Assembly: GCF_003096415.1 (NCBI RefSeq)
Contig: NZ_QEKH01000011.1
Coordinates: 62,001-126,000, forward strand
From: Victivallis vadensis
GTDB lineage: Bacteria > Verrucomicrobiota > Lentisphaeria > Victivallales > Victivallaceae
DNA: 64,000 nt
Reading direction: 5' to 3'
Shown: in pieces, positions 5,673-59,773 of the stretch
Layout: each line of letters opens with the position of its first letter
Numbering within the stretch: the first letter of the stretch is position 1
Notes under the pieces: model-generated
What the model was told of the DNA's origin: nothing
The model's input: only the letters and a program-made list of their open reading frames with translations
Database searches by the model: none
Position numbers and translations under genes: made by a program

Positions 5673-5715
5673 GACTCAAACCGATTTTTTTCGTTAAATT
5701 TCAGTGTGCGCCGGT

Positions 5716-5840
5716 TTGCTCCTGCGACGCGAAGCGTCTTTGGAGTGCGTCGCCTTTAGGCTTGCTCCTGCGACGCGAAGCGTCTTTGGAGTGCGTCGCC
5801 TTTGGGCTTGCTCCTGCGACGCGAAGCGTCTTTGAAGTGC
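5716..5840 (+). repeat. 46-bp tandem repeat, about 2.7 units
   Basis: Units begin with TTGCTCCTGCGACGCGAAGC at 5716, 5762 and 5808. Units one and two differ at about one position; the third diverges after about 30 bp. Each unit carries the small hairpin GCGACGCgaaGCGTC. There are no spacers, so it is not a CRISPR. Confidence 0.9.
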
Positions 5841-6263
5841 GGAGATTCATCTCCGCTTTCAAATCGCACGCAAGTCTTATATTTGATTTTGCATCGAAAC
5901 AAGAACAGGCATGGTTCCCGGAGGTACTGCTTTATTAAGTGCAAAAACAGGCATGGTGCCCGGAGGGTAGTGAGCACGGGCTTGGTGTTTTGCGGATGGC
6001 TCCGGGGGACGTCGCGCACGTCCCCCGGACCCCCTCGCCGGTGGCGGGGGCCGGGCCGGTTGCGGAGCACTTCCGCTCGCGGGCGCGGCTTCGCCGCTTA
6101 CTTGTCCGCCTGCGGCGGCCAACCCCTTCAGCGTTCGCTGCGCTCACTACGCCAGGGGGGCTTCGCTCTCTACGTTCGGCTTCGTCACTATCGTTCCTCG
6201 TTATTTTGCGACCGCAAAATAATACCCTCACATTCGTTCGCGGCGCGAACCCGCGCTTATTGT

Positions 6264-6359
6264 GCGCCGCGTAAATGGAGACTTGGCCTTACTCTGCGCC
6301 GCGTAAATGGGAACTTGGCCTTACTCTGCGCCGCGTAAATGGGAACTTGGCCTTACTCC
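6264..6359 (+). repeat. 32-bp tandem repeat, three units
   Basis: Units start at 6264, 6296 and 6328 with GCGCCGCGTAAATGG and end with a CTTGGCCTTACTC stretch. The second long-element copy has two similar units (45608 and 45641) with a 33-bp period and changed distal halves. Confidence 0.88.
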
Positions 6360-6360
6360 T

Positions 6361-6505
6361 CCGGTTTTGAAATTTTTTGCGTAGCAAAAATTTCAAAACC
6401 GTATCCGGCACCGGCACCTTGCCGGTCGGGGGGCCAGGGGGGCCGGGGGGCGAAGCGCCCCCGGTGGGGTTCCGGAACAACGCCCCGGGCCGCCGCAGGC
6501 GAAAT
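6361..6505 (-). repeat. Short gene-flanking hairpin element, copy 1
   Basis: Minus-oriented copy of a family also seen at 15236, 17097, 29949, 30401, 33737 and 59700. It has a T/A-rich stem (GGTTTTGAAATTTTTTGC paired with its reverse complement across GTA), a CCGGCACCTTGCCGG hairpin and a GGGGGCGAAGCGCCCCC hairpin. The GC-rich head end faces the esterase gene that starts at 6588. Confidence 0.8.
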
Positions 6506-13931: not shown

Positions 13932-15227
13932 ATGAAAAAGCTCTATTTCGGTTCGGCCGACTTTGAAGCCGACCTCAAAAAACTCTATGACCGCCCGAGC
14001 TATCCGCCCGAAATCGAAGCGCAGGCCGCCGCGATCATCGCCGATGTGAAAGCCGAAGGCGATGCGGCGCTGGTCCGTTACGCCGCGAAATTCGACCATG
14101 CGGAGCTTACTCCGGCGCAGTTCCGGGTCACCGGCGACGAGATCGCCGCCGCCGAAAAGCAGCTTCCGGCACGCCTGAAAAGCGCGATCCGCACCGCCCT
14201 CAGACAGGTGCGCGACTTTGCGAAGCTGACCATACCGAAAGGCTGGACCGCTTCGCCGCGCCCGGGCGTGACCCTCGGCGAGAAGTTCGAACCGCTGGAC
14301 CGGGTCGGCGTCTACATTCCCGGCGGCACCGCGCCGCTGGTTTCGACAGTCCTGCATACCGCCGGCATCGCCGGTGCCGCGAAAGTCAAGGAGATCGTCG
14401 CCGTGACTCCGCCGGGCCGCGACGGCAAGGTGCATCCCGCCGTCCTCTACGCGATGAAACTCGCCGGAGTCACCGAAATCTACCGGCTCGGCGGCGTGTA
14501 CGGCGTCGCCGCCCTCGCCTGCGGCACGGAAACCATCGCCAAAGTGGAAAAAATCGTCGGCCCCGGCAACGCCTATGTGACCGCCGCCAAGAAGCTGCTC
14601 TACGGACAGGTCGCGATCGACATGGTCGCCGGCCCCTCCGAAATTCTGGTGATCGCCGACGAAACCGCCGATCCGTCCTTTATCGCCGCCGACCTGCTCA
14701 GCCAGGCCGAGCACGGCAGCGGACTTGAGCAGGCGGTTCTCGTGACCACCGACAAAGCGATGATCGACCGCGTCGAAGCCGAATTCCTGCGCCAGAAAGC
14801 GACGCTGCCCCGGCTCGCGACGGTTGACCGGGTACAGGAGCACGGCCTTTTCCTGATCCATACCCCGGATCTCGACACCGCCGCCGCTATCGCGTCCAGC
14901 TACGCGCCGGAGCATCTGGAAATCCAGACCGCCCGCCCCGAACAGGTTGCCAGAAAGATTACCGCCGCCGGAGCGATGTTCCTCGGCAAGTGGACCCCGG
15001 AACCGGTCGGCGATTTCTGCGCCGGTCCGTCGCACGTGCTGCCGACCGCCTCCAGCGCCCGCTACTTCAACGGCCTCGAAACCGTCAGTTTCTTCCGCCG
15101 TTCCAGCATTGTGAAGTACACCGAAGCCGCGATCAGGCGTGAAGTTTCGATGGTCGAAGCCTTTGCGGAGATGGAGGGCCTCGCCGCCCACGGCCGCAGC
15201 GGAACCATCCGCGTCAAACCGCTGTAA
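13932..15227 (+). CDS. hisD: Histidinol dehydrogenase
   Basis: 431 residues, normal length. It oxidises L-histidinol to L-histidine in two NAD-linked steps with a zinc ion. Motifs include GVYIPGGTAPLVSTVLH, VGPGNAYVTAAKKLLYG, the zinc-site QAEHGSGLEQ and the catalytic SYAPEHLEIQ. It starts 1 bp after panC. The stop is followed 8 bp later by a copy of the short hairpin element (15236) and then a hairpin array. No other his gene is present. Confidence 0.97.
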   Translation: MKKLYFGSADFEADLKKLYDRPSYPPEIEAQAAAIIADVKAEGDAALVRYAAKFDHAELTPAQFRVTGDEIAAAEKQLPARLKSAIRTALRQVRDFAKLTIPKGWTASPRPGVTLGEKFEPLDRVGVYIPGGTAPLVSTVLHTAGIAGAAKVKEIVAVTPPGRDGKVHPAVLYAMKLAGVTEIYRLGGVYGVAALACGTETIAKVEKIVGPGNAYVTAAKKLLYGQVAIDMVAGPSEILVIADETADPSFIAADLLSQAEHGSGLEQAVLVTTDKAMIDRVEAEFLRQKATLPRLATVDRVQEHGLFLIHTPDLDTAAAIASSYAPEHLEIQTARPEQVARKITAAGAMFLGKWTPEPVGDFCAGPSHVLPTASSARYFNGLETVSFFRRSSIVKYTEAAIRREVSMVEAFAEMEGLAAHGRSGTIRVKPL

Positions 15228-15235
15228 CCGGCGGC

Positions 15236-15375
15236 TTGCCTCCGGCGGCCGGGGGGCGCTTCGCCCCCCGGGCCCCCCGACCGGCAAGGTGCCGGCGCCG
15301 GGTACGGTTTCGAGCTTTTTTGCTATGCAAAAATCTCAAAACCGGGGTTATTATCTATCAGTTTATTGGCTCTAG
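15236..15375 (+). repeat. Short gene-flanking hairpin element, copy 2
   Basis: Head TTGCCTCCGGCGGCC, hairpin GGGGGGCGCTTCGCCCCCC, hairpin CCGGCAAGGTGCCGG, then an A/T-rich stem GGTTTCGAGCTTTTTT paired with AAAAATCTCAAAACC and the tail GGTTATTATCTATCAG. Nearly the same 130-bp order recurs at 33737-33871. The head lies 8 bp after the hisD stop. Confidence 0.88.
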
Positions 15376-15390
15376 CGGCTGTACTTGCTG

Positions 15391-15556
15391 CCGGGTGCTA
15401 CCCGGTCGGGGTCAAGGGACGAAGTGCCCTTGTCGTCGAAGACACTTGGGTGCGTAGCGCCCAGCTACCGGAGCCTGATTGAAAATCAGGCCGCGCAGCG
15501 CACAAGGTCTGTCGCACGACAGGGCGGCAGACCCGCCTGCCTTCAAAACGGCAGGC
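15391..15556. other. Cluster of six consecutive small hairpins
   Basis: In 166 bp there are six inverted repeats: CCGGGT/ACCCGG (15391-15405), AAGGG/CCCTT (15414-15431), GGGTGC/GCGCCC (15448-15462), GCCTGATT/AATCAGGC (15473-15491), CTGTCG/CGACAG (15509-15522) and GCCTGCC/GGCAGGC (15535-15556). The last is followed by TTTC and could end hisD transcription. No protein is recognised. Confidence 0.75.
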
Positions 15557-15594
15557 TTTCCCCCCGACTTGCCTCCGGCAACACAACAGATGCC

Positions 15595-17096: not shown

Positions 17097-17256
17097 TACA
17101 AATAAACCTATAGATACTATCCCCGGTTTTGTAATTTTTACACAGTAAAAATTCAAAACCGTACCCTGCTCCGGCACCTTGCCGATCGGGAGGCCCGGGG
17201 GACGAAGTGCTCCCGGTGGCGTCCCGGGGCAACGCCCCGGACCGCCGAAGGCAATG
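17097..17256 (-). repeat. Short gene-flanking hairpin element, copy 3
   Basis: Minus-oriented copy: tail with CTATAGATACTATCCCCGG, an A/T-rich stem (GGTTTTGTAATTTTTAC against its complement), a CCGGCACCTTGCCGATCGGG hairpin and a GC hairpin. The head reaches within 3 bp of the alr stop. The rest of 16963-17096 shows nothing recognisable. Confidence 0.78.
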
Positions 17257-17258
17257 CG

Positions 17259-28125: not shown

Positions 28126-29862
28126 ATGAACATCAATCTGAAAATCAACGGACAGCCGGTCAGCGTCGCTCCCGGTTCCACCATACTTGAAGCGGCGGAG
28201 AAGCTCGAAATCAAAATCCCAACCCTCTGCCACTTCAAAATGGACTGCTTTCACGTCGATCACCGCAGCGCCTCCTGCCGCATCTGCGTGGTCGAAGTCA
28301 AGGGACGGCCCAACCTCGCCCCGGCCTGCAGCACTCCGGCCGCGGAAGGGATGGAGGTGCACACCAACACGCTGCGCGCGATCAACGCCCGGCGCACCAT
28401 CCTCGACCTGCTGCTTTCGGACCACCCGAAGGACTGCCTGATCTGCCCGAAAAACCTGAACTGCCAACTCCAGGCGCTCGCGCAGGAGATGGGCCTGCAC
28501 CATTTGTTGTACAAGGGCGAGCAGTCCACCTACAACAAGGACCTCTCCAGCCAGGCGATCGCCCGCGACCTGGACAAGTGCATCATGTGCCGCCGCTGCG
28601 AAACCGCCTGCAACGCGATCCAGACCGTCGGCGTGCTCTCCGGCGTCGGGCGCGGCTTCAACGCGGTGGTCGCCCCGGCCGGGCTGAAACCGCTTGCCGA
28701 AACCGAATGCGTGTTCTGCGGCCAGTGCGTGCAGGCGTGCCCGGTGGGGGCGCTCAGCGAAATCGACTATAAGTATCCGGTCTGGCGCGCGTTGAACGAC
28801 CCGGCCAAGACCGTGGTGGTCCAGACCGCCCCGGCGGTCCGCGTCGCGATCGGCGAAGCCTTCGGCCTGCCTCCCGGTTCGGTCAGCACCGGCAAGATGG
28901 TCACCGCGCTGCGGATGCTCGGCTTCGACCGGGTGTTCGACACTGACTTCGCCGCCGACCTGACCATCATGGAGGAGACCACCGAGCTGATCGAGCGGAT
29001 CAAAAGCGGCAGAAACCTGCCGATCCTGACCAGCTGCTGCCCGGGTTGGGTCAAGTTCCTCGAACACCAGTTCCCGGAGCTGATCTACATGCCCTCCACC
29101 GCGAAGTCGCCGCAGCAGATGTTCGGCGCGATCACCAAGACCTACTTCGCGCAGAAGGCCGGCATCGCCCCGGAAAACCTGACGGTCGTTTCGGTGATGC
29201 CATGCCTCTCCAAGAAATACGAAGCCGCCCGCGAGGAGTTCAGCCGCGACGGCATCCGCGACGTGGACATCGTGATCTCAACGCGCGAACTCGCCGACAT
29301 GATCCGCGAAGCGGGCATCCAGTTCGACCAGCTTGAAGAGGGCGAATACGACTCCCCGCTCGGCGAATCCACCGGAGCCGCCGTGATCTTCGGCGCGACC
29401 GGCGGCGTCCTCGAAGCAGCCCTGCGCACCGCCGCCGACTGGATCGCGGGAGAGGACCTGCAGGAGATCGACTTCACCGGCGTACGCGGCCTCGACGGGA
29501 TCAAGGAAGCCGCCGTGAACATCAACGGCCTCGAACTGCACGTCGCCGTCTGCTCCGGCCTCGGCAACGCCCGCAAACTGCTCGAGAAAATTCAGAAAGG
29601 GGAAGCCGACTATCAGGCCATCGAAATCATGGCCTGTCCCGGCGGCTGCCTGAACGGCGGCGGCCAGCCCTACCACCACGGTGACACCACCATCCTGCAA
29701 AAGCGCCTCGAAGCCCTCTACCGGGACGACAAATCCCAGCCGGTCCGCAAATCGCACCGGAATCCCTCCATTCAGCGTCTCTACGCCGAATTTCTCGGGG
29801 AGCCCGGCAGCCACTTCGCCCACCAGCTGCTGCACACCGCCTATGTCGACCGCCGCAAATAG
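28126..29862 (+). CDS. hydA: [FeFe] hydrogenase catalytic subunit
   Basis: 578 residues from ATG 28126 (AGGAG 9 nt upstream). Domains: plant-type [2Fe-2S] (Cys35, 51, 54, 68), His-ligated [4Fe-4S] (His100, Cys104, 107, 113), two [4Fe-4S] (CIMCRRCETAC, CVFCGQCVQAC) and the H-cluster domain with TSCCPGW (302-308), MPCLSKK (358-364) and MACPGGC (502-508). The C-terminus extends about 60 residues beyond the H domain. It makes or consumes H2 in the cytoplasm; with HydBC it probably re-oxidises NADH and ferredoxin together. No HydEFG maturases are in the window. Confidence 0.97.
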   Translation: MNINLKINGQPVSVAPGSTILEAAEKLEIKIPTLCHFKMDCFHVDHRSASCRICVVEVKGRPNLAPACSTPAAEGMEVHTNTLRAINARRTILDLLLSDHPKDCLICPKNLNCQLQALAQEMGLHHLLYKGEQSTYNKDLSSQAIARDLDKCIMCRRCETACNAIQTVGVLSGVGRGFNAVVAPAGLKPLAETECVFCGQCVQACPVGALSEIDYKYPVWRALNDPAKTVVVQTAPAVRVAIGEAFGLPPGSVSTGKMVTALRMLGFDRVFDTDFAADLTIMEETTELIERIKSGRNLPILTSCCPGWVKFLEHQFPELIYMPSTAKSPQQMFGAITKTYFAQKAGIAPENLTVVSVMPCLSKKYEAAREEFSRDGIRDVDIVISTRELADMIREAGIQFDQLEEGEYDSPLGESTGAAVIFGATGGVLEAALRTAADWIAGEDLQEIDFTGVRGLDGIKEAAVNINGLELHVAVCSGLGNARKLLEKIQKGEADYQAIEIMACPGGCLNGGGQPYHHGDTTILQKRLEALYRDDKSQPVRKSHRNPSIQRLYAEFLGEPGSHFAHQLLHTAYVDRRK

Positions 29863-29948
29863 CTCCGGCCGGCGCATCAGCCCCGGACCGGCACAGCCGT
29901 CGGTCCGGGAGAGTTTATTAACTGATGAAGCAAGCTCACAACGGATTC

Positions 29949-30197
29949 GGGATTTCGCCTTCGGCGACCAAGGCGCTTCGCCCTTGGAACCCGACCGGCA
30001 AGGTGCCGGCGCCGAATACTTGAGATCCGGGAAAACCGGAACGGTTTTCCCTCCGGGTGGGGGAGACTCTACTGTGGACAGGCAGGCAAGTACCTGAGCG
30101 GCACACCGCTCCGGTCGGCGACCGCGTCGGCTTTTTTGCCGACGCCGGGCACTCCCTGCGCCTGCTGCCGCCGGAGGTCACGCGCGGAACCTCCAGA
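29949..30197 (+). repeat. Left arm of large inverted repeat (short hairpin family, copy 4)
   Basis: About 249 bp that recur inverted at 30401-30633. It begins with the family head (GGGATTTCGCCTTCGGCG), an AAGGCGCTTCGCCCTT hairpin and CCGGCAAGGTGCCGG, then continues with a unique part that includes GGAAAACCGGAACGGTTTTCC and GCGTCGGCTTTTTTGCCGACGC, both perfect or near-perfect hairpins. The left arm carries about 17 extra bp near 30148. The head faces the hydA stop. Confidence 0.9.
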
Positions 30198-30400
30198 TGT
30201 TAACCGGATGATGTGAAATTACACTCATGGAGGCTGAACCCTCCCTACCTTTTCATACAGGCAAGGTTCAGTAAGGCTCGTACTCAAAGATATGCTTGCC
30301 TGTGATGTGCCAGTTGTATTGTTGCCTGACCTCGCCTTGCCTATATGGGAGATTAGCTCTTAACAGCCTCCATCAGGGTATTTTTCAATTACCCGGTCAG

Positions 30401-30633
30401 CATCTGGAGGTTCCGCGCGTGACCTCCGGCGGCAGCGGCGTCGGCAAAAAAGCCGACGCGGTCGCCGACCGGAGCGGTGTGCCGCTCCTGTATAACCTTG
30501 CCTGTCTCTACCGGAGCCTCCCCCACCCGGAGGGAAAACCGTTCCGGTTTTCCCGGATCTAAAGTACCCGGCGCCGGCACCTTGCCGGTCGGGTTCCAAG
30601 GGCGAAGCGCCTTGGTCGCCGAAGGCGAAATCC
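30401..30633 (-). repeat. Right arm of large inverted repeat (short hairpin family, copy 5)
   Basis: Reverse complement of 29949-30197 with roughly 85-90 percent agreement by eye. Its head faces the pepF stop at 30673. The 203-bp spacer (30198-30400) contains an inner inverted pair (TGGAGGCTG at 30225-30233 and CAGCCTCCA at 30364-30372) and a small stem GGGTA/TACCC (30376-30394); no gene was found in it. Confidence 0.9.
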
Positions 30634-30672
30634 CTACTCGAAAAACTTGCACACGGCGTTGATTAATCAACT

Positions 30673-32448
30673 CTAAAGGCCGAGGGTTTCGCGGAGGCGG
30701 CCGACCGTGGCGCTGAAGTAGTCCAGCGCGGCGGCCACCGGCGCGGGGGTCGACAGGTCAACTCCCGCGTCTTTCATGATGTCCAGCACATCCTTGGAGT
30801 CCCCCGCCTTCAGGAAGCCGAAATAGGCCTCCCGTTTGGCCGGGTCGCCGGAACGGAGGTTTTCGGCCAGCTTGATCGCGGCGGACATGCCGGTCGCGTA
30901 TTTGTACACGTAGAAGTTGTAGTAGAAGTGTGGAATGCGCGCCCATTCGACCGCGATCAGCGGGTCGGCCTCCACCTCGGGGCCGTAGTAGAGCTTGTTC
31001 AGTTCAAAATACTTCTCGTTCAGCAGGTCGGCCGAGAGCGGCACGCCGGACTCGGCCAGCTCATGAACCATCAGCTCGAATTCCGCGAACATGGTCTGGC
31101 GGTAGATGGTGCCGCGGATTTCATCGGCGAGGTGACCGTACAGGAATGCCCGGAACTCCTGGTCGTCCGACTTCTCCAGCAGATGCTCGAAGAGCAGGAT
31201 TTCGTTGGTGGTGCTGGCGACCTCGGCGACGAAGATGCTGTAGCCCGCGTAGTGATAGGGCTGGGTGCGGTTCGAATAGAAGCTGTGCATCGAGTGGCCC
31301 AGCTCGTGCGCCAGAGTGAACACGTCGTTCAGCGTGCGGTTGTAGTTCAGCAGCAAATAGGGGTAGCTGTCGTAGCAGCCGCTCGAATAAGCTCCCGAGC
31401 GCTTCCCCTTGCGCTCCGGCACGTCAACCCAGCGCTGGGTGAACGCCAGCTCCAGATTCTTCGCGTAATCCTCCCCGAGCGGCTTCAGCGCCTCCCGGAC
31501 CAGTCCGACCGCCTCGGGGAAACTGTATTCGCGGCGGCAGCCCGGCAGCAGCGGGTTGTACATGTCGAACATATCGAGCTTGTCGAGCTTCATCACCTCC
31601 CGGCGCAGCTTCATGTAATCGTAAAAGCCGCCGAGGTGGTCATGGACGGTGGAAATCAGGTTGCGGTACACCGCCTCCGGCACGTTGTCCGAAGCCAGCG
31701 ACTTGGCAAGCGAGGAGGGATAGTGACGGATTTTCGCGGAAACGGCGTGTCGCTTCACCGCTCCGTCCAGCGTGGTCGCAAAGGTGTTGCGGAACTTGCG
31801 GTAGGTGCCGAACATCTTCCTGAACGCCCGTTTGCGCACCTCGCGGTCGGCGCTTTCAAGGAACTTGCGGTAGCTGCCGTGGGTCAGAAGCTCCGGCTTG
31901 CCGGATTCGCCCTTCACCTTGCCGAAATCGAGGTCGGCGTCGTTCAGGATTTCAAAGGTCTTGTCGGGATAGCCGAGCACATCGCCGAGGGTGCCGAGCA
32001 GCCGCTCCTCAGGTTCGGAAAGGGTGTGCGGCTTTTCGCGCAGCAATTCGACGAGACTGCGCCGGTAGAGGGCAAGCTCGGGAGCGTCGAGGAACGCATT
32101 CATCCGCTCTTCCGGGATCGCCATCACTTCCGGATCGAACCACGCGCTGGTTTCGGCCAGCGACGCAAACAATGCCTCGACCCGGTCCACCCGGCTGCGG
32201 TTGGCGTTGTCGGCGGTGTTCTCGTCGGAGCGCAAGTGGGCGAATACATAGACCTTTTCGCCGAGGCGCTCAAAGGCGTCCAGCGCCTCGATCGCCTCTT
32301 TCAGCACCAGCGCCGATTCGGCGAGGCGGCCGCGATAGGCCAGAAACGCCTCGGCCAGCGGTTTGATCCGGTTGAAATCAGCCTCCCAGGCTTCGAGGCT
32401 GGAATAAAGCGGGGAAAGATCCCAGGTCTGTTTTTCAGAAATCATCAT
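30673..32448 (-). CDS. pepF: Oligoendopeptidase F
   Basis: 591 residues from ATG 32448 (AAGGAG 7 nt upstream), usual family length of about 600; the frame to 32610 adds an unrelated N-terminus. It is an M3B zinc metallopeptidase that cuts short peptides in the cytoplasm. His381, Glu382 and His385 in HELGHSMHSF are the zinc/catalytic residues and the downstream VASTTNEILLFEHLL supplies the third ligand. GCYDSYPYLLLNYN precedes the motif, as in the family. A consensus promoter lies at 32485-32513. Confidence 0.96.
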   Translation of the reverse strand: MMISEKQTWDLSPLYSSLEAWEADFNRIKPLAEAFLAYRGRLAESALVLKEAIEALDAFERLGEKVYVFAHLRSDENTADNANRSRVDRVEALFASLAETSAWFDPEVMAIPEERMNAFLDAPELALYRRSLVELLREKPHTLSEPEERLLGTLGDVLGYPDKTFEILNDADLDFGKVKGESGKPELLTHGSYRKFLESADREVRKRAFRKMFGTYRKFRNTFATTLDGAVKRHAVSAKIRHYPSSLAKSLASDNVPEAVYRNLISTVHDHLGGFYDYMKLRREVMKLDKLDMFDMYNPLLPGCRREYSFPEAVGLVREALKPLGEDYAKNLELAFTQRWVDVPERKGKRSGAYSSGCYDSYPYLLLNYNRTLNDVFTLAHELGHSMHSFYSNRTQPYHYAGYSIFVAEVASTTNEILLFEHLLEKSDDQEFRAFLYGHLADEIRGTIYRQTMFAEFELMVHELAESGVPLSADLLNEKYFELNKLYYGPEVEADPLIAVEWARIPHFYYNFYVYKYATGMSAAIKLAENLRSGDPAKREAYFGFLKAGDSKDVLDIMKDAGVDLSTPAPVAAALDYFSATVGRLRETLGL

Positions 32449-33736: not shown

Positions 33737-33871
33737 TTGCCTCCGGCGGCCCGGGGCGCTTCGCCCCCGGGACCCCAGACCGGCAAGGTGCCGGCGCCGG
33801 GTACGGTTTCGAGCTTTTTACTGCGCAAAAATCTCAAAACCGGGGTTATTATCCATCAGTTTATTAGCTCT
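33737..33871 (+). repeat. Short gene-flanking hairpin element, copy 6
   Basis: Close match to the 15236 copy: head TTGCCTCCGGCGGCC, GGGGCGCTTCGCCCC, CCGGCAAGGTGCCGG, the A/T-rich stem and the tail GGTTATTATCCATCAG. A second head fragment (TTGCCTCCGGCGGCC) follows at about 33884. The head lies about 20 bp upstream of the srkA start. Confidence 0.88.
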
Positions 33872-33945
33872 GTCGGCGGTACTTGCCTCCGGCGGCCCGG
33901 GCGGGTTCAAAAGGCCACGCGGCCCTCTTACCGTTCCCTTAGAAA

Positions 33946-45047: not shown

Positions 45048-45145
45048 TTTTACCTCAATCAGTAAGGCCGCGCGGCCCCCTTGGAGCTTCCGTGCTTTCC
45101 GTGCCAGTCCGTGGACACAATGCCCGGAAAGGCCGGACGGCAACC

Positions 45146-45665
45146 TTGGAGTGCGGAGCCCGAAGGGCTTGCTCCCGCTTCGCGGGAGTAAGATTCATCT
45201 CCGCTTTCCAGTCACGCGTGAGTTTTATGGTTGGCTTGTCATTGCATCAAGAACAGGCAAGGTGCCCGGAGGGTAACAACTTTTGAGCGCAAGAACAGGC
45301 AAGGTGCCCGGAGGGTAGCGAGCACCGCACCTCCGGCCTGCGGATGGCTCCGGGGGACGTCGCGCACGTCCCCCGGACCCCCTCGCCGGTGGCGGAGGCC
45401 GGTCCGGTTGCAGGGCACTTCCGCTCGCGGGCGCGGCTTCGCCGCTTACTTGCCGGGCTGCGCCCGTCAACTCCTCAGCGTTCGCTGCGCTCACTACGCC
45501 GGAGGGGCTTCGCTCACTACGTTCGGCTTCGTCACTATCGTTCCTCGTTACTTGCTGCCGCAAGTAATTCCCTCACATTCGTTCGCGGCGCTGACCGCGC
45601 TTGTTGTGCGCCGCGTAAATGGTGTTACGGCCTTATTTGTGCGCCGCGTAAATGGTGTTGCTGAC
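45146..45665 (+). repeat. Long dispersed intergenic hairpin element, copy B
   Basis: Same order as copy A at 5716-6359: TTGGAGTGCGG-type start with a GCTCCCGC/GCGGGAG hairpin in place of tandem units, two ACAGGCAAGGTGCCCGGAGG motifs, the identical CCGGGGGACGT/ACGTCCCCCGG hairpin (45350-45376), a shared stretch including CGCTCGCGGGCGCGGCTTCG, the hairpin TTACTTGC/GCAAGTAA (45548-45567, sequence changed but pairing kept), and two GCGCCGCGTAAATGG units (45608, 45641). It follows the DUF4105 gene and precedes the pilins. 45048-45145 shows no gene. Confidence 0.85.
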
Positions 45666-45738
45666 CGACCGATGCTTCGCCTGTACTAGTTGCCCGCACG
45701 CCCCCCGGAGGGGCATTGGCGGGCGCACCCGGCAGCGG

Positions 45739-45952: not shown

Positions 45953-46597
45953 ATGAAGAAAACTCGTGGGTTCACCCTTATTGAGCTGCTCGTCGTTATC
46001 GCGATTATCGCGATTCTGGCGGGCATGCTGCTTCCGGCGTTGAATCAGGCCCGTGAAAAAGCCCGCCGCATTTCCTGCGTCAGCAACTTGAAGCAGATCG
46101 GCACCTCATTGCAGACTTACGCGATCGACTTTGAAAGCCGTTTCCCCTCTCTGGCCGGAGCCGAAGGCTTTGAAGTTCTGCGCGCCAATGATTACCTGAC
46201 CGATTACGCTATTTATGTCTGCCCGTCCTCCACCACCACGAAAGGCTCCGGAACCGACGAACTGGAAGCCGAGAACGCCGACTATGCCTTTGCTGGAAAT
46301 ATGATGGCGGGTGACTCCGCCATGTACGGCAGAGCCGATTCCGGTATTGCAATCGACAAAAGCGGTTACAGCGGCCAAGCCTCTAATGGCGGTCAAGCCA
46401 ACCATTCCAAATATGGTTCAATCCTGTTTCAGGGCGGTCATGTAACCGGTTTTACCGGGACTGCTGCTGAGTCCGTCTCCAAAGGAGGCATTACCGTCAG
46501 TAATGCCGGAGCTTGGAACAGCGTCCAAAATGCCGGTTATACCATGACTTTCTCCGGCGGTACGGACGAAGGCGGTGAAGCGGCAGAAGGTGACTAA
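45953..46597 (+). CDS. Type IV pilin-like / prepilin-type protein 1
   Basis: 214 residues. A 5-residue leader ends in Gly, then [19 protein letters not shown] with Glu+5, the canonical site for prepilin peptidase and N-methylation. [30 protein letters not shown] follows (read in parts). The C-terminal half has [17 protein letters not shown], similar to the H-X9-DG region. AAGGAG precedes the ATG. A homologue lies 343 bp downstream; their N-terminal 60 residues are almost identical and the later parts diverge. It is probably a pilus or pseudopilus subunit. Confidence 0.92.
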
Positions 46598-46940: not shown

Positions 46941-47594
46941 ATGAAAAAAAGTCGTGGGTTCACCCTTATTGAGCTGCTCGTCGTGATCGCGATTATCGCG
47001 ATTCTGGCGGGTATGCTGCTGCCGGCTCTGAACCAGGCCCGTGAGAAGGCCCGTCGTATTTCCTGCACCAGCAACCTGAAGCAGATCGGTACCTCTCTGA
47101 AGACCTACTCGATCGACTTCGAAAGCCGTCTGCCCTCTGATGCGGGTGTCGATGGTTTTGAAGTTCTGCGTGTCAATGACTACCTGACCGACTACAGCAT
47201 TTACATCTGTCCGTCGTCCACCACCACCAAAGGCAGTGGCACCCAGGCTTTGACTGAGAATGGTACTGCAGGCACGAAAGGCAGCCTCAGTGACTACTAC
47301 TATGCCGGTGGTATGATGGAGGGCGATTCGGCGACTTATGGCCGTGCGGATTCCGGTATCGCTGCCGACAGGATCAAGACTGCAAGTAAGTCGAATGGTG
47401 GCCAGGCCAATCACTCCAAGTATGGCAACGTCCTCTTCCAGGGCGGTCATGTGACTGGTTTTACCGGTCAGAAGGAAATGGCGACTGATGACGCGTTCAT
47501 CACTGATGGCGCTTACTGGCACAGCAAGACCAATGTTGGTGCAACTCAGACCTTTGGTTACGCCAAGGACAAGCGTGTGGGCTCTGGTAGCTAA
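46941..47594 (+). CDS. Type IV pilin-like / prepilin-type protein 2
   Basis: 217 residues, paralogue of the gene at 45953 with the same leader, helix ([20 protein letters not shown]) and [11 protein letters not shown] region, and the same C-terminal [17 protein letters not shown]. Unlike the neighbours it favours CGT, GGT, ACC and AAG codons, a bias usual in very strongly expressed genes. AAGGAG precedes the ATG, and a T-tailed terminator follows. It is probably the major surface fibre subunit. Confidence 0.92.
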
Positions 47595-59699: not shown

Positions 59700-59773
59700 T
59701 TCCGCCACACCTCGTCCGGCACCTTGCCGGTCGGGGGACCGGGAGGCGAAACGCCCCCCGGCCGCCGGAGGCA
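59700..59773 (-). repeat. Short gene-flanking hairpin element, copy 7 (partial)
   Basis: CCGGCACCTTGCCGG hairpin, GC hairpin and the head (GGCCGCCGGAGGC) ending directly at the decarboxylase stop codon (59774-59776). The A/T-rich stem and tail are absent. Confidence 0.78.

Follow-up and report, generated by a model that had tools for sequence, protein, structure and literature searches.

A mosaic family of REP/MITE-like hairpin repeats built around one core motif in the genome of Victivallis vadensis

The genome of Victivallis vadensis, a gut bacterium of the phylum Lentisphaerota, contains a high-copy family of repeats in which one core, CCGGCAAGGTGCCGG, is combined with three different bodies, in which the head of the element follows a strict rule of facing gene ends, and which is absent from orthologous sites in relatives. 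They are probably REP/MITE-type elements, non-autonomous and built of hairpins, which have spread in this Victivallis lineage as a mosaic around the core, with the positions and roles proposed below. Because no Y1 transposase was found in this genome and no canonical terminator at the stop codons concerned, we label them REP/MITE-like and assign no mobiliser to them.

The window, that is, the whole stretch of 64,000 nucleotides analysed here, has a GC content of 60%. Seven copies of a short hairpin element had been named in it, and the core is found at each of these seven places, six times exactly and once, at 17171, with one mismatch. A scan that tolerated two mismatches returned 12 matches in the window, as compared to 0.38 expected from shuffled sequences. 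The genome-wide pattern search that the earlier note had proposed yielded 170 exact cores in 5.2 Mb (86 on one strand and 84 on the other), and the reversed control yielded none; the family thus shows the high number of scattered palindromic stem-loops by which REPs are recognised. We read 100 of the 170 cores, taken in contig order, in 58 regions fetched around them; nine further regions, selected for matching the class B element of the window, were added. Genes were called with a codon-usage script; stop codons are exact and starts are the caller's own. Three architectures, A, B and C, share the core. Sorted by their flanks, 29 of the 100 cores belong to class A, 45 to class B, where they form 22 pairs and leave one core single, and 25 to class C, with one other; these figures are used throughout in place of a previous sorting (27, 41 and 25, with seven others). 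The single class B core, at 14195 of locus L090, combines the head of class B with a body resembling class C and adjoins a prepilin gene, a hybrid that suggests an exchange of modules between classes.

Coordinates of the repeat copies found in the window.
Feature	Position	Strand	Basis
Class A element, nearly full length; head 8 bp past the hisD stop	15236..15563	+	alignment, folding
Core CCGGCAAGGTGCCGG of the 15236 copy	15281..15295	+	motif scan
Class A copy; head toward the start of the 6588 gene, tail entering a different repeat family	6361..6500	-	
Class A copy with one core mismatch; head 3 bp past the alr stop	17097..17257	-	
Class B element, near-complete palindrome with a head at either end, between the convergent hydA and pepF genes	29949..30634	.	
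Class A copy whose tail is shortened; 20 bp separate its head from the start of an APH-family (srkA-like) gene	33737..33892	+	
Truncated class A copy, reduced to head, GC hairpin and core; its head directly adjoins the decarboxylase stop	59700..59773	-	

The copy at 15236 almost fills the intergenic region 15228-15594 and runs from a head hairpin through a GC hairpin, the core, an A/T-rich stem and more hairpins to a TTTCCCC end. It had been delimited at 140 bp; a complete single element measures about 330 bp, and this copy extends to about 15563. The A/T-rich stem of the original description is indeed present in class A, and is restricted to this one of the three architectures, class B arms continuing with other hairpins instead. 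Nor are all seven copies complete, since that at 59700 ends after the core, and those at 29949 and 30401 are not two copies at all: they are the two arms of one palindrome of 686 bp. The distances previously given from the heads to the hisD, alr and decarboxylase stops (8, 3 and 0 bp) and to the srkA-like start (20 bp) all hold, and the flanking genes have domain matches (alr, PF01168/PF00842; decarboxylase, PF02784; srkA-like, APH family). Positions 5713-6358 and 45140-45690 of the window are occupied by another repeat family, about 500-650 bp long, with units carrying TGCGCCGCGTAAATGG and CAGGCAAGGTGCCCGGAGG; the two places are 60-95% alike, and one copy adjoins the class A element at 6361.

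Class A is directional. In its nearly full unit of about 330 bp, which contains multiple hairpins, the core is followed by the A/T-rich stem and further hairpins; tandem copies are found in L074, L078 and L092. The head points toward the 3' end of a gene in 25 of the 29 copies and lies at most 20 bp from the stop in 19 of them, the four copies whose head faces a 5' end including the one at 33737. No tail (0/29) comes within 20 bp of any 3' end, the tail being taken to finish where the A/T stem does and not where the full element does. Random placement in 274 element-free gaps would bring 4.6% (length-weighted) or 23.7% (gap-uniform) of heads to within 20 bp of a 3' end that they face, and even against the more generous of these nulls (0.237) the 19/29 observed has p = 2e-6.

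Folding of the class A copy at 15236 gives energies far below those of shuffled sequences on its own strand (z -5.9) and on the opposite one (z -6.0), and since both strands fold equally well the fold alone does not favour a role as RNA. RNAalifold was applied to an alignment of 20 of the 29 class A copies (the scripts omit L065, L080, L091 and the window copies at 6411 and 59716, whose bodies are incomplete or divergent) and found nine pairs changed on both sides, with a small covariation term of -0.35. No terminal inverted repeats are evident in the class A alignment. The tail contains, at 15470-15510 of the window, CCTGATTGAAAATCAGG, which we take to resemble the anticodon arm of tRNA-Phe; a tRNA origin of the tail is not claimed, because neither ARAGORN on 30 loci nor Rfam on five called a tRNA in the element. 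A tRNA-Glu called by ARAGORN inside hisD, on the minus strand at 14125-14213, is probably false.

Class B consists of two outward-pointing arms whose cores are about 595 bp apart, with a head at each end. The median length of the 31 class B elements, nine extra regions included, is 703 bp; they are self-complementary from end to end (longest inverted match, median 697 bp at 79% identity); where the arms alone align, these measure about 285 bp and are 86-95% identical. With both flanks known, 20 of 30 elements lie between convergent genes, an arrangement seen in 26 of the 274 gaps that have no element (Fisher p = 7e-12). Fifty of the 61 arms point toward a 3' end, and 30 of the 61 do so within 20 bp; the other 11 face a 5' end at 83-338 bp, with the exception of one at 2 bp. 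Random orientation and distance relative to genes had been named by the earlier note as the pattern that would speak against its proposal, and the tabulated positions do not show it, because the heads of both class A and class B mostly face gene 3' ends.

As RNA, the class B element of the window folds into a single hairpin of -580 kcal/mol (z -52, 20 shuffles). We aligned 40 of 56 arms, from the 28 elements that passed a stricter selection than the 31 used for positional counts, and examined six helices named by hand (38 pairs). Pairing reached 98.8% versus 90.6% in shuffled alignments, 11 pairs were changed on both sides versus at most two when partners were slid, and the covariation score was 0.238 versus 0.096 (shuffled) and at most 0.062 (slid). 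The stems of class B are thus kept by paired changes; independent events are few, because the paired changes mostly amount to two or three alleles per stem that are common to many copies, and the core, which through the choice of the sample does not vary, is uninformative. Concerted evolution of the arms was tested for and not found, arms of the same element being 82.0% alike and arms of different elements 81.3%.

Class C, of about 400 bp, is situated inside genes. All 25 copies examined in this genome lie at the codons of an FTLIELLV-type motif of prepilin genes, with the head directed toward the motif and the prepilin gene running in the other direction. In 24 of the 25 copies, core and motif are separated by a distance divisible by three, and the corresponding frame stays open through about 300 nt before the core in 24, the other two frames being closed in 24 and 25 copies; the exception to the in-frame rule is L065. 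In relatives 14 of 15 copies are in frame, a set that is less telling because another frame is also open in 11 of the 15. A second copy of the motif (at least five of eight residues) can be recognised upstream in 16 of the 25 genes, and all 16 inserts between the two motif copies have a length of 3n (381-654 nt) and are open. An ATG is found upstream in 14 of these 16 genes, with a ribosome-binding-like sequence in 14 of 14. The three codon positions have similar numbers of variable columns (27/35/31 at positions 1, 2 and 3), so that the peptide is kept free of stops and not conserved as such. A comparison of the two motifs lends no support to a target-site duplication: copies within a single gene resemble each other about as much as those from different genes do (0.779 versus 0.762; permutation p 0.087).

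Only part of the prepilins carry the insert, because prepilin motifs number at least 150 in the genome (of 308 candidates 150 were scored, every one of them a match). Counts of the class C1 motif, which include tandem repeats inside a single G074 gene, are 33 in this genome, 35 in the same-genus genome G074, 18 in G075 and one in G005. Several of the class C loci among L041-L098 contain a tandem unit of about 130 nt that varies in copy number and keeps the frame, and those of G074 a frame-keeping tandem unit of about 81 nt. In the window, two adjacent prepilin-like genes (N_methyl, DUF1559) at 45953-46597 and 46941-47594 are 84% alike over 300 bp, and the copy that was translated has no class C insert. 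Prepilin peptidase removes the leader from prepilins. Class C presumably sits in this cleaved leader, and the insert would then be removed together with it, as we infer from its place before the second motif.

Other Victivallis genomes have no element, in the sequence read, at the sites orthologous to those of the window copies. No element was found behind hisD in 8/8 loci, behind alr in 6/6 loci with a readable end (of seven; in relatives the next gene follows closely), behind hydA in 4/4 readable loci (of five), behind pepF in 6/6 (one read over just 31 nt) or before the srkA start in 5/5 (two of them with upstream sequence of only about 110 nt). In two relatives the region after hydA has, judged by eye, a simple hairpin with a T tract. 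The 17-base motif GACCGGCAAGGTGCCGG occurs 134 times in this genome, five times in G068, once in G063 and never in the remaining 75 of the 78 family genomes. Together with the empty orthologous sites, these counts indicate a recent expansion of the repeat family in this lineage.

We then turned to enzymes that might move such elements. The RAYT-type (Y1) transposase that the earlier note suggested looking for did not appear: PF01797 gave no match in this genome, although the controls matched in 5 of 14 genomes. The Y1 transposase is present in four of nine genomes of the genus, and CCGGCAAGGTGCCGG is absent from all four Y1 loci fetched from them. The sole reverse transcriptase gene found in the genome (L235, G000:C20:94502-95083, a frame of 328 residues) has no core in its 3.6-kb locus. 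A search for an IS91-type transposase (PF04986) gave no match, and its positive controls likewise gave none. No similar DNA was found in phage records searched with class A or in plasmid records searched with class B. A similar architecture occurs once each in three other Lentisphaeria loci (L031, L112 and L143) and in one contig of a viral collection (L161). The head lies about 10 bp or less from a called stop in L143 and L161, too few cases to generalise, and no gene end was called near the head in L031 and L112. Matches to a 20-base pattern in at least 61 contig stretches were set aside in the case of 36 from other phyla, which by their flanks are chance matches in GC-rich sequence, and four of five viral stretches, which have no element flanks, were judged likewise.

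It stands at close to an even chance that the elements are purely selfish insertions, whose sites behind stops, for instance at existing terminators, are targeted by the mobiliser or tolerated by selection, and which serve no function of the cell. The empty sites in relatives, a class C frame that is kept open with no bias of codon position, and one copy in L078 that lies directly behind a native terminator are all consistent with such insertions. However, the stems are kept by paired changes, and most heads lie too near the stop to leave a native terminator in between.

The short distance to the stop also brings to mind a regulation linked to translation. According to PMC12306157, E. coli REPs located at most 15 nt from a stop cause ribosomes to stall and reduce the expression of the gene before them. 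Elements acting in this way would be expected close to stops, as are the 19 class A heads and 30 class B arms within 20 bp, but many arms are located at 20-40 bp or farther, and we regard such an action as rather unlikely here.

Placement behind genes, and of a palindrome between convergent genes, would equally suit classical rho-independent terminators that have been multiplied throughout the genome. In the class B region 29860-30680 four terminator-like patterns were detected, as compared to 1.1 in shuffled sequences, one per arm at a T run that lies deeper in the arms and is nearly invariant; the same scan of the class A region of the window gave one, on the opposite strand, versus 0.6 expected. 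Nevertheless, element-bearing ends lack the GC hairpin and T tract near the stop that define an intrinsic terminator: such a structure was found within 90 nt of the stop at one of 65 element-bearing ends, and it is infrequent at element-free ends too (19 of 195). Multiplied classical terminators are therefore improbable, while some termination function of the elements is possible. That the repeats are instead a family of structured non-coding RNA genes, as their strong folds and their many hairpins with paired changes might suggest, is very improbable given their strict attachment to gene ends, the absence of promoter-like sites in the two regions scanned, and the results from Rfam: at gathering score the window matched no family, and permissive settings applied to five loci returned just two hits, both below threshold and unconnected with the element.

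Among known systems, the elements most resemble REPs. Like REP/BIME sequences of the GTAG and CGTC super-families, they are dispersed, many-copy hairpins located mostly behind genes. According to PMC3733652, conv-REPs lie less than 20 bp from both 3' ends, uni-REPs lie near the upstream 3' end at a variable distance from the downstream gene, and head-to-head REP dimers are common; the elements described here likewise lie near gene 3' ends, and near both when genes converge, and class B likewise has a head at each end. They differ from REPs in size, with about 330 bp (A) or a median of 703 bp (B) and many hairpins instead of a unit of 20-40 bp. As to the tag, REPs have GTAG or CGTC next to the stem; here CGTC directly precedes the stem in class C1 alone, and CGAC in A and B. 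REPs are mobilised by RAYT, and the search of this genome yielded no Y1/RAYT transposase. The term REP-like used in the earlier note is thus borne out by the number of copies, their hairpins, the emptiness of orthologous sites and the head-to-stop rule, and not by the transposase.

MITEs and pneumococcal BOX/SPRITE elements are described in PMC10969869 as non-autonomous intergenic repeats with transcript hairpins and nested insertion. The present elements are probably also non-autonomous intergenic repeats able to form hairpins in transcripts, and also have a modular build. Modularity is a feature of pneumococcal BOX as well. MITEs carry the terminal inverted repeats of a known transposase and a target-site duplication. 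Class B is self-complementary from end to end, and class A has no terminal inverted repeats evident. RPEs, which according to PMC10969869 and PMC3733652 are palindromic repeats inserted in frame into coding genes of Rickettsia, share the frame-keeping insertion of a palindrome with class C alone. However, RPEs are about 150 bp and hit unrelated genes, whereas class C is about 400 bp, occupies one codon position of the prepilin family and, unlike RPEs, is situated between two FTLIELLV copies. Size, mosaic build, long palindrome and the class C site, together with the missing RAYT, lead us to consider the elements REP-like in behaviour and not members of the RAYT-mobilised REPs. No report of REPs in the phylum Lentisphaerota was found in the literature searched; the portion of PMC12985086 available counts regions of V. 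vadensis rich in reverse-complement triplets and describes no repeat family.

Returning to the REP/MITE-like interpretation, we propose that an enzyme encoded elsewhere may move or copy the elements, and that they would be retained at places where the structure does no harm or is of use. Folded in the transcript behind a stop, an element could act as a 3'-end structure, as a barrier to 3' exonucleases and possibly as an aid to termination, so that a role in the formation of transcript 3' ends seems plausible. The directional class A would fit placement mostly behind co-directional genes, and the two-headed palindrome of class B would fit the gap between convergent genes. Class C, in frame and placed before a complete second processing motif, would be expected to be cut off by prepilin peptidase. 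One mosaic system may thus occupy three niches, behind stops, two-headed between convergent genes and in frame in a prepilin leader where it is tolerated through removal by the peptidase, a scheme that we put forward tentatively and hold somewhat less probable than its opposite.

REP-type repeats are common, and what they do and why they lie right after stops are standing questions in the field. A strict post-stop rule in a genome of the Lentisphaerota in which RAYT was not found is a natural experiment on what fixes this position, and the palindromic form doubles the head where two genes converge. Class C, presumably in the prepilin leader, is the most novel part of the repeat system. If its proposed removal is true, a selfish element would here have found a previously undescribed mode of existence within coding sequence, and it predicts that a cleaved leader may offer a safe harbour for in-frame mobile DNA.
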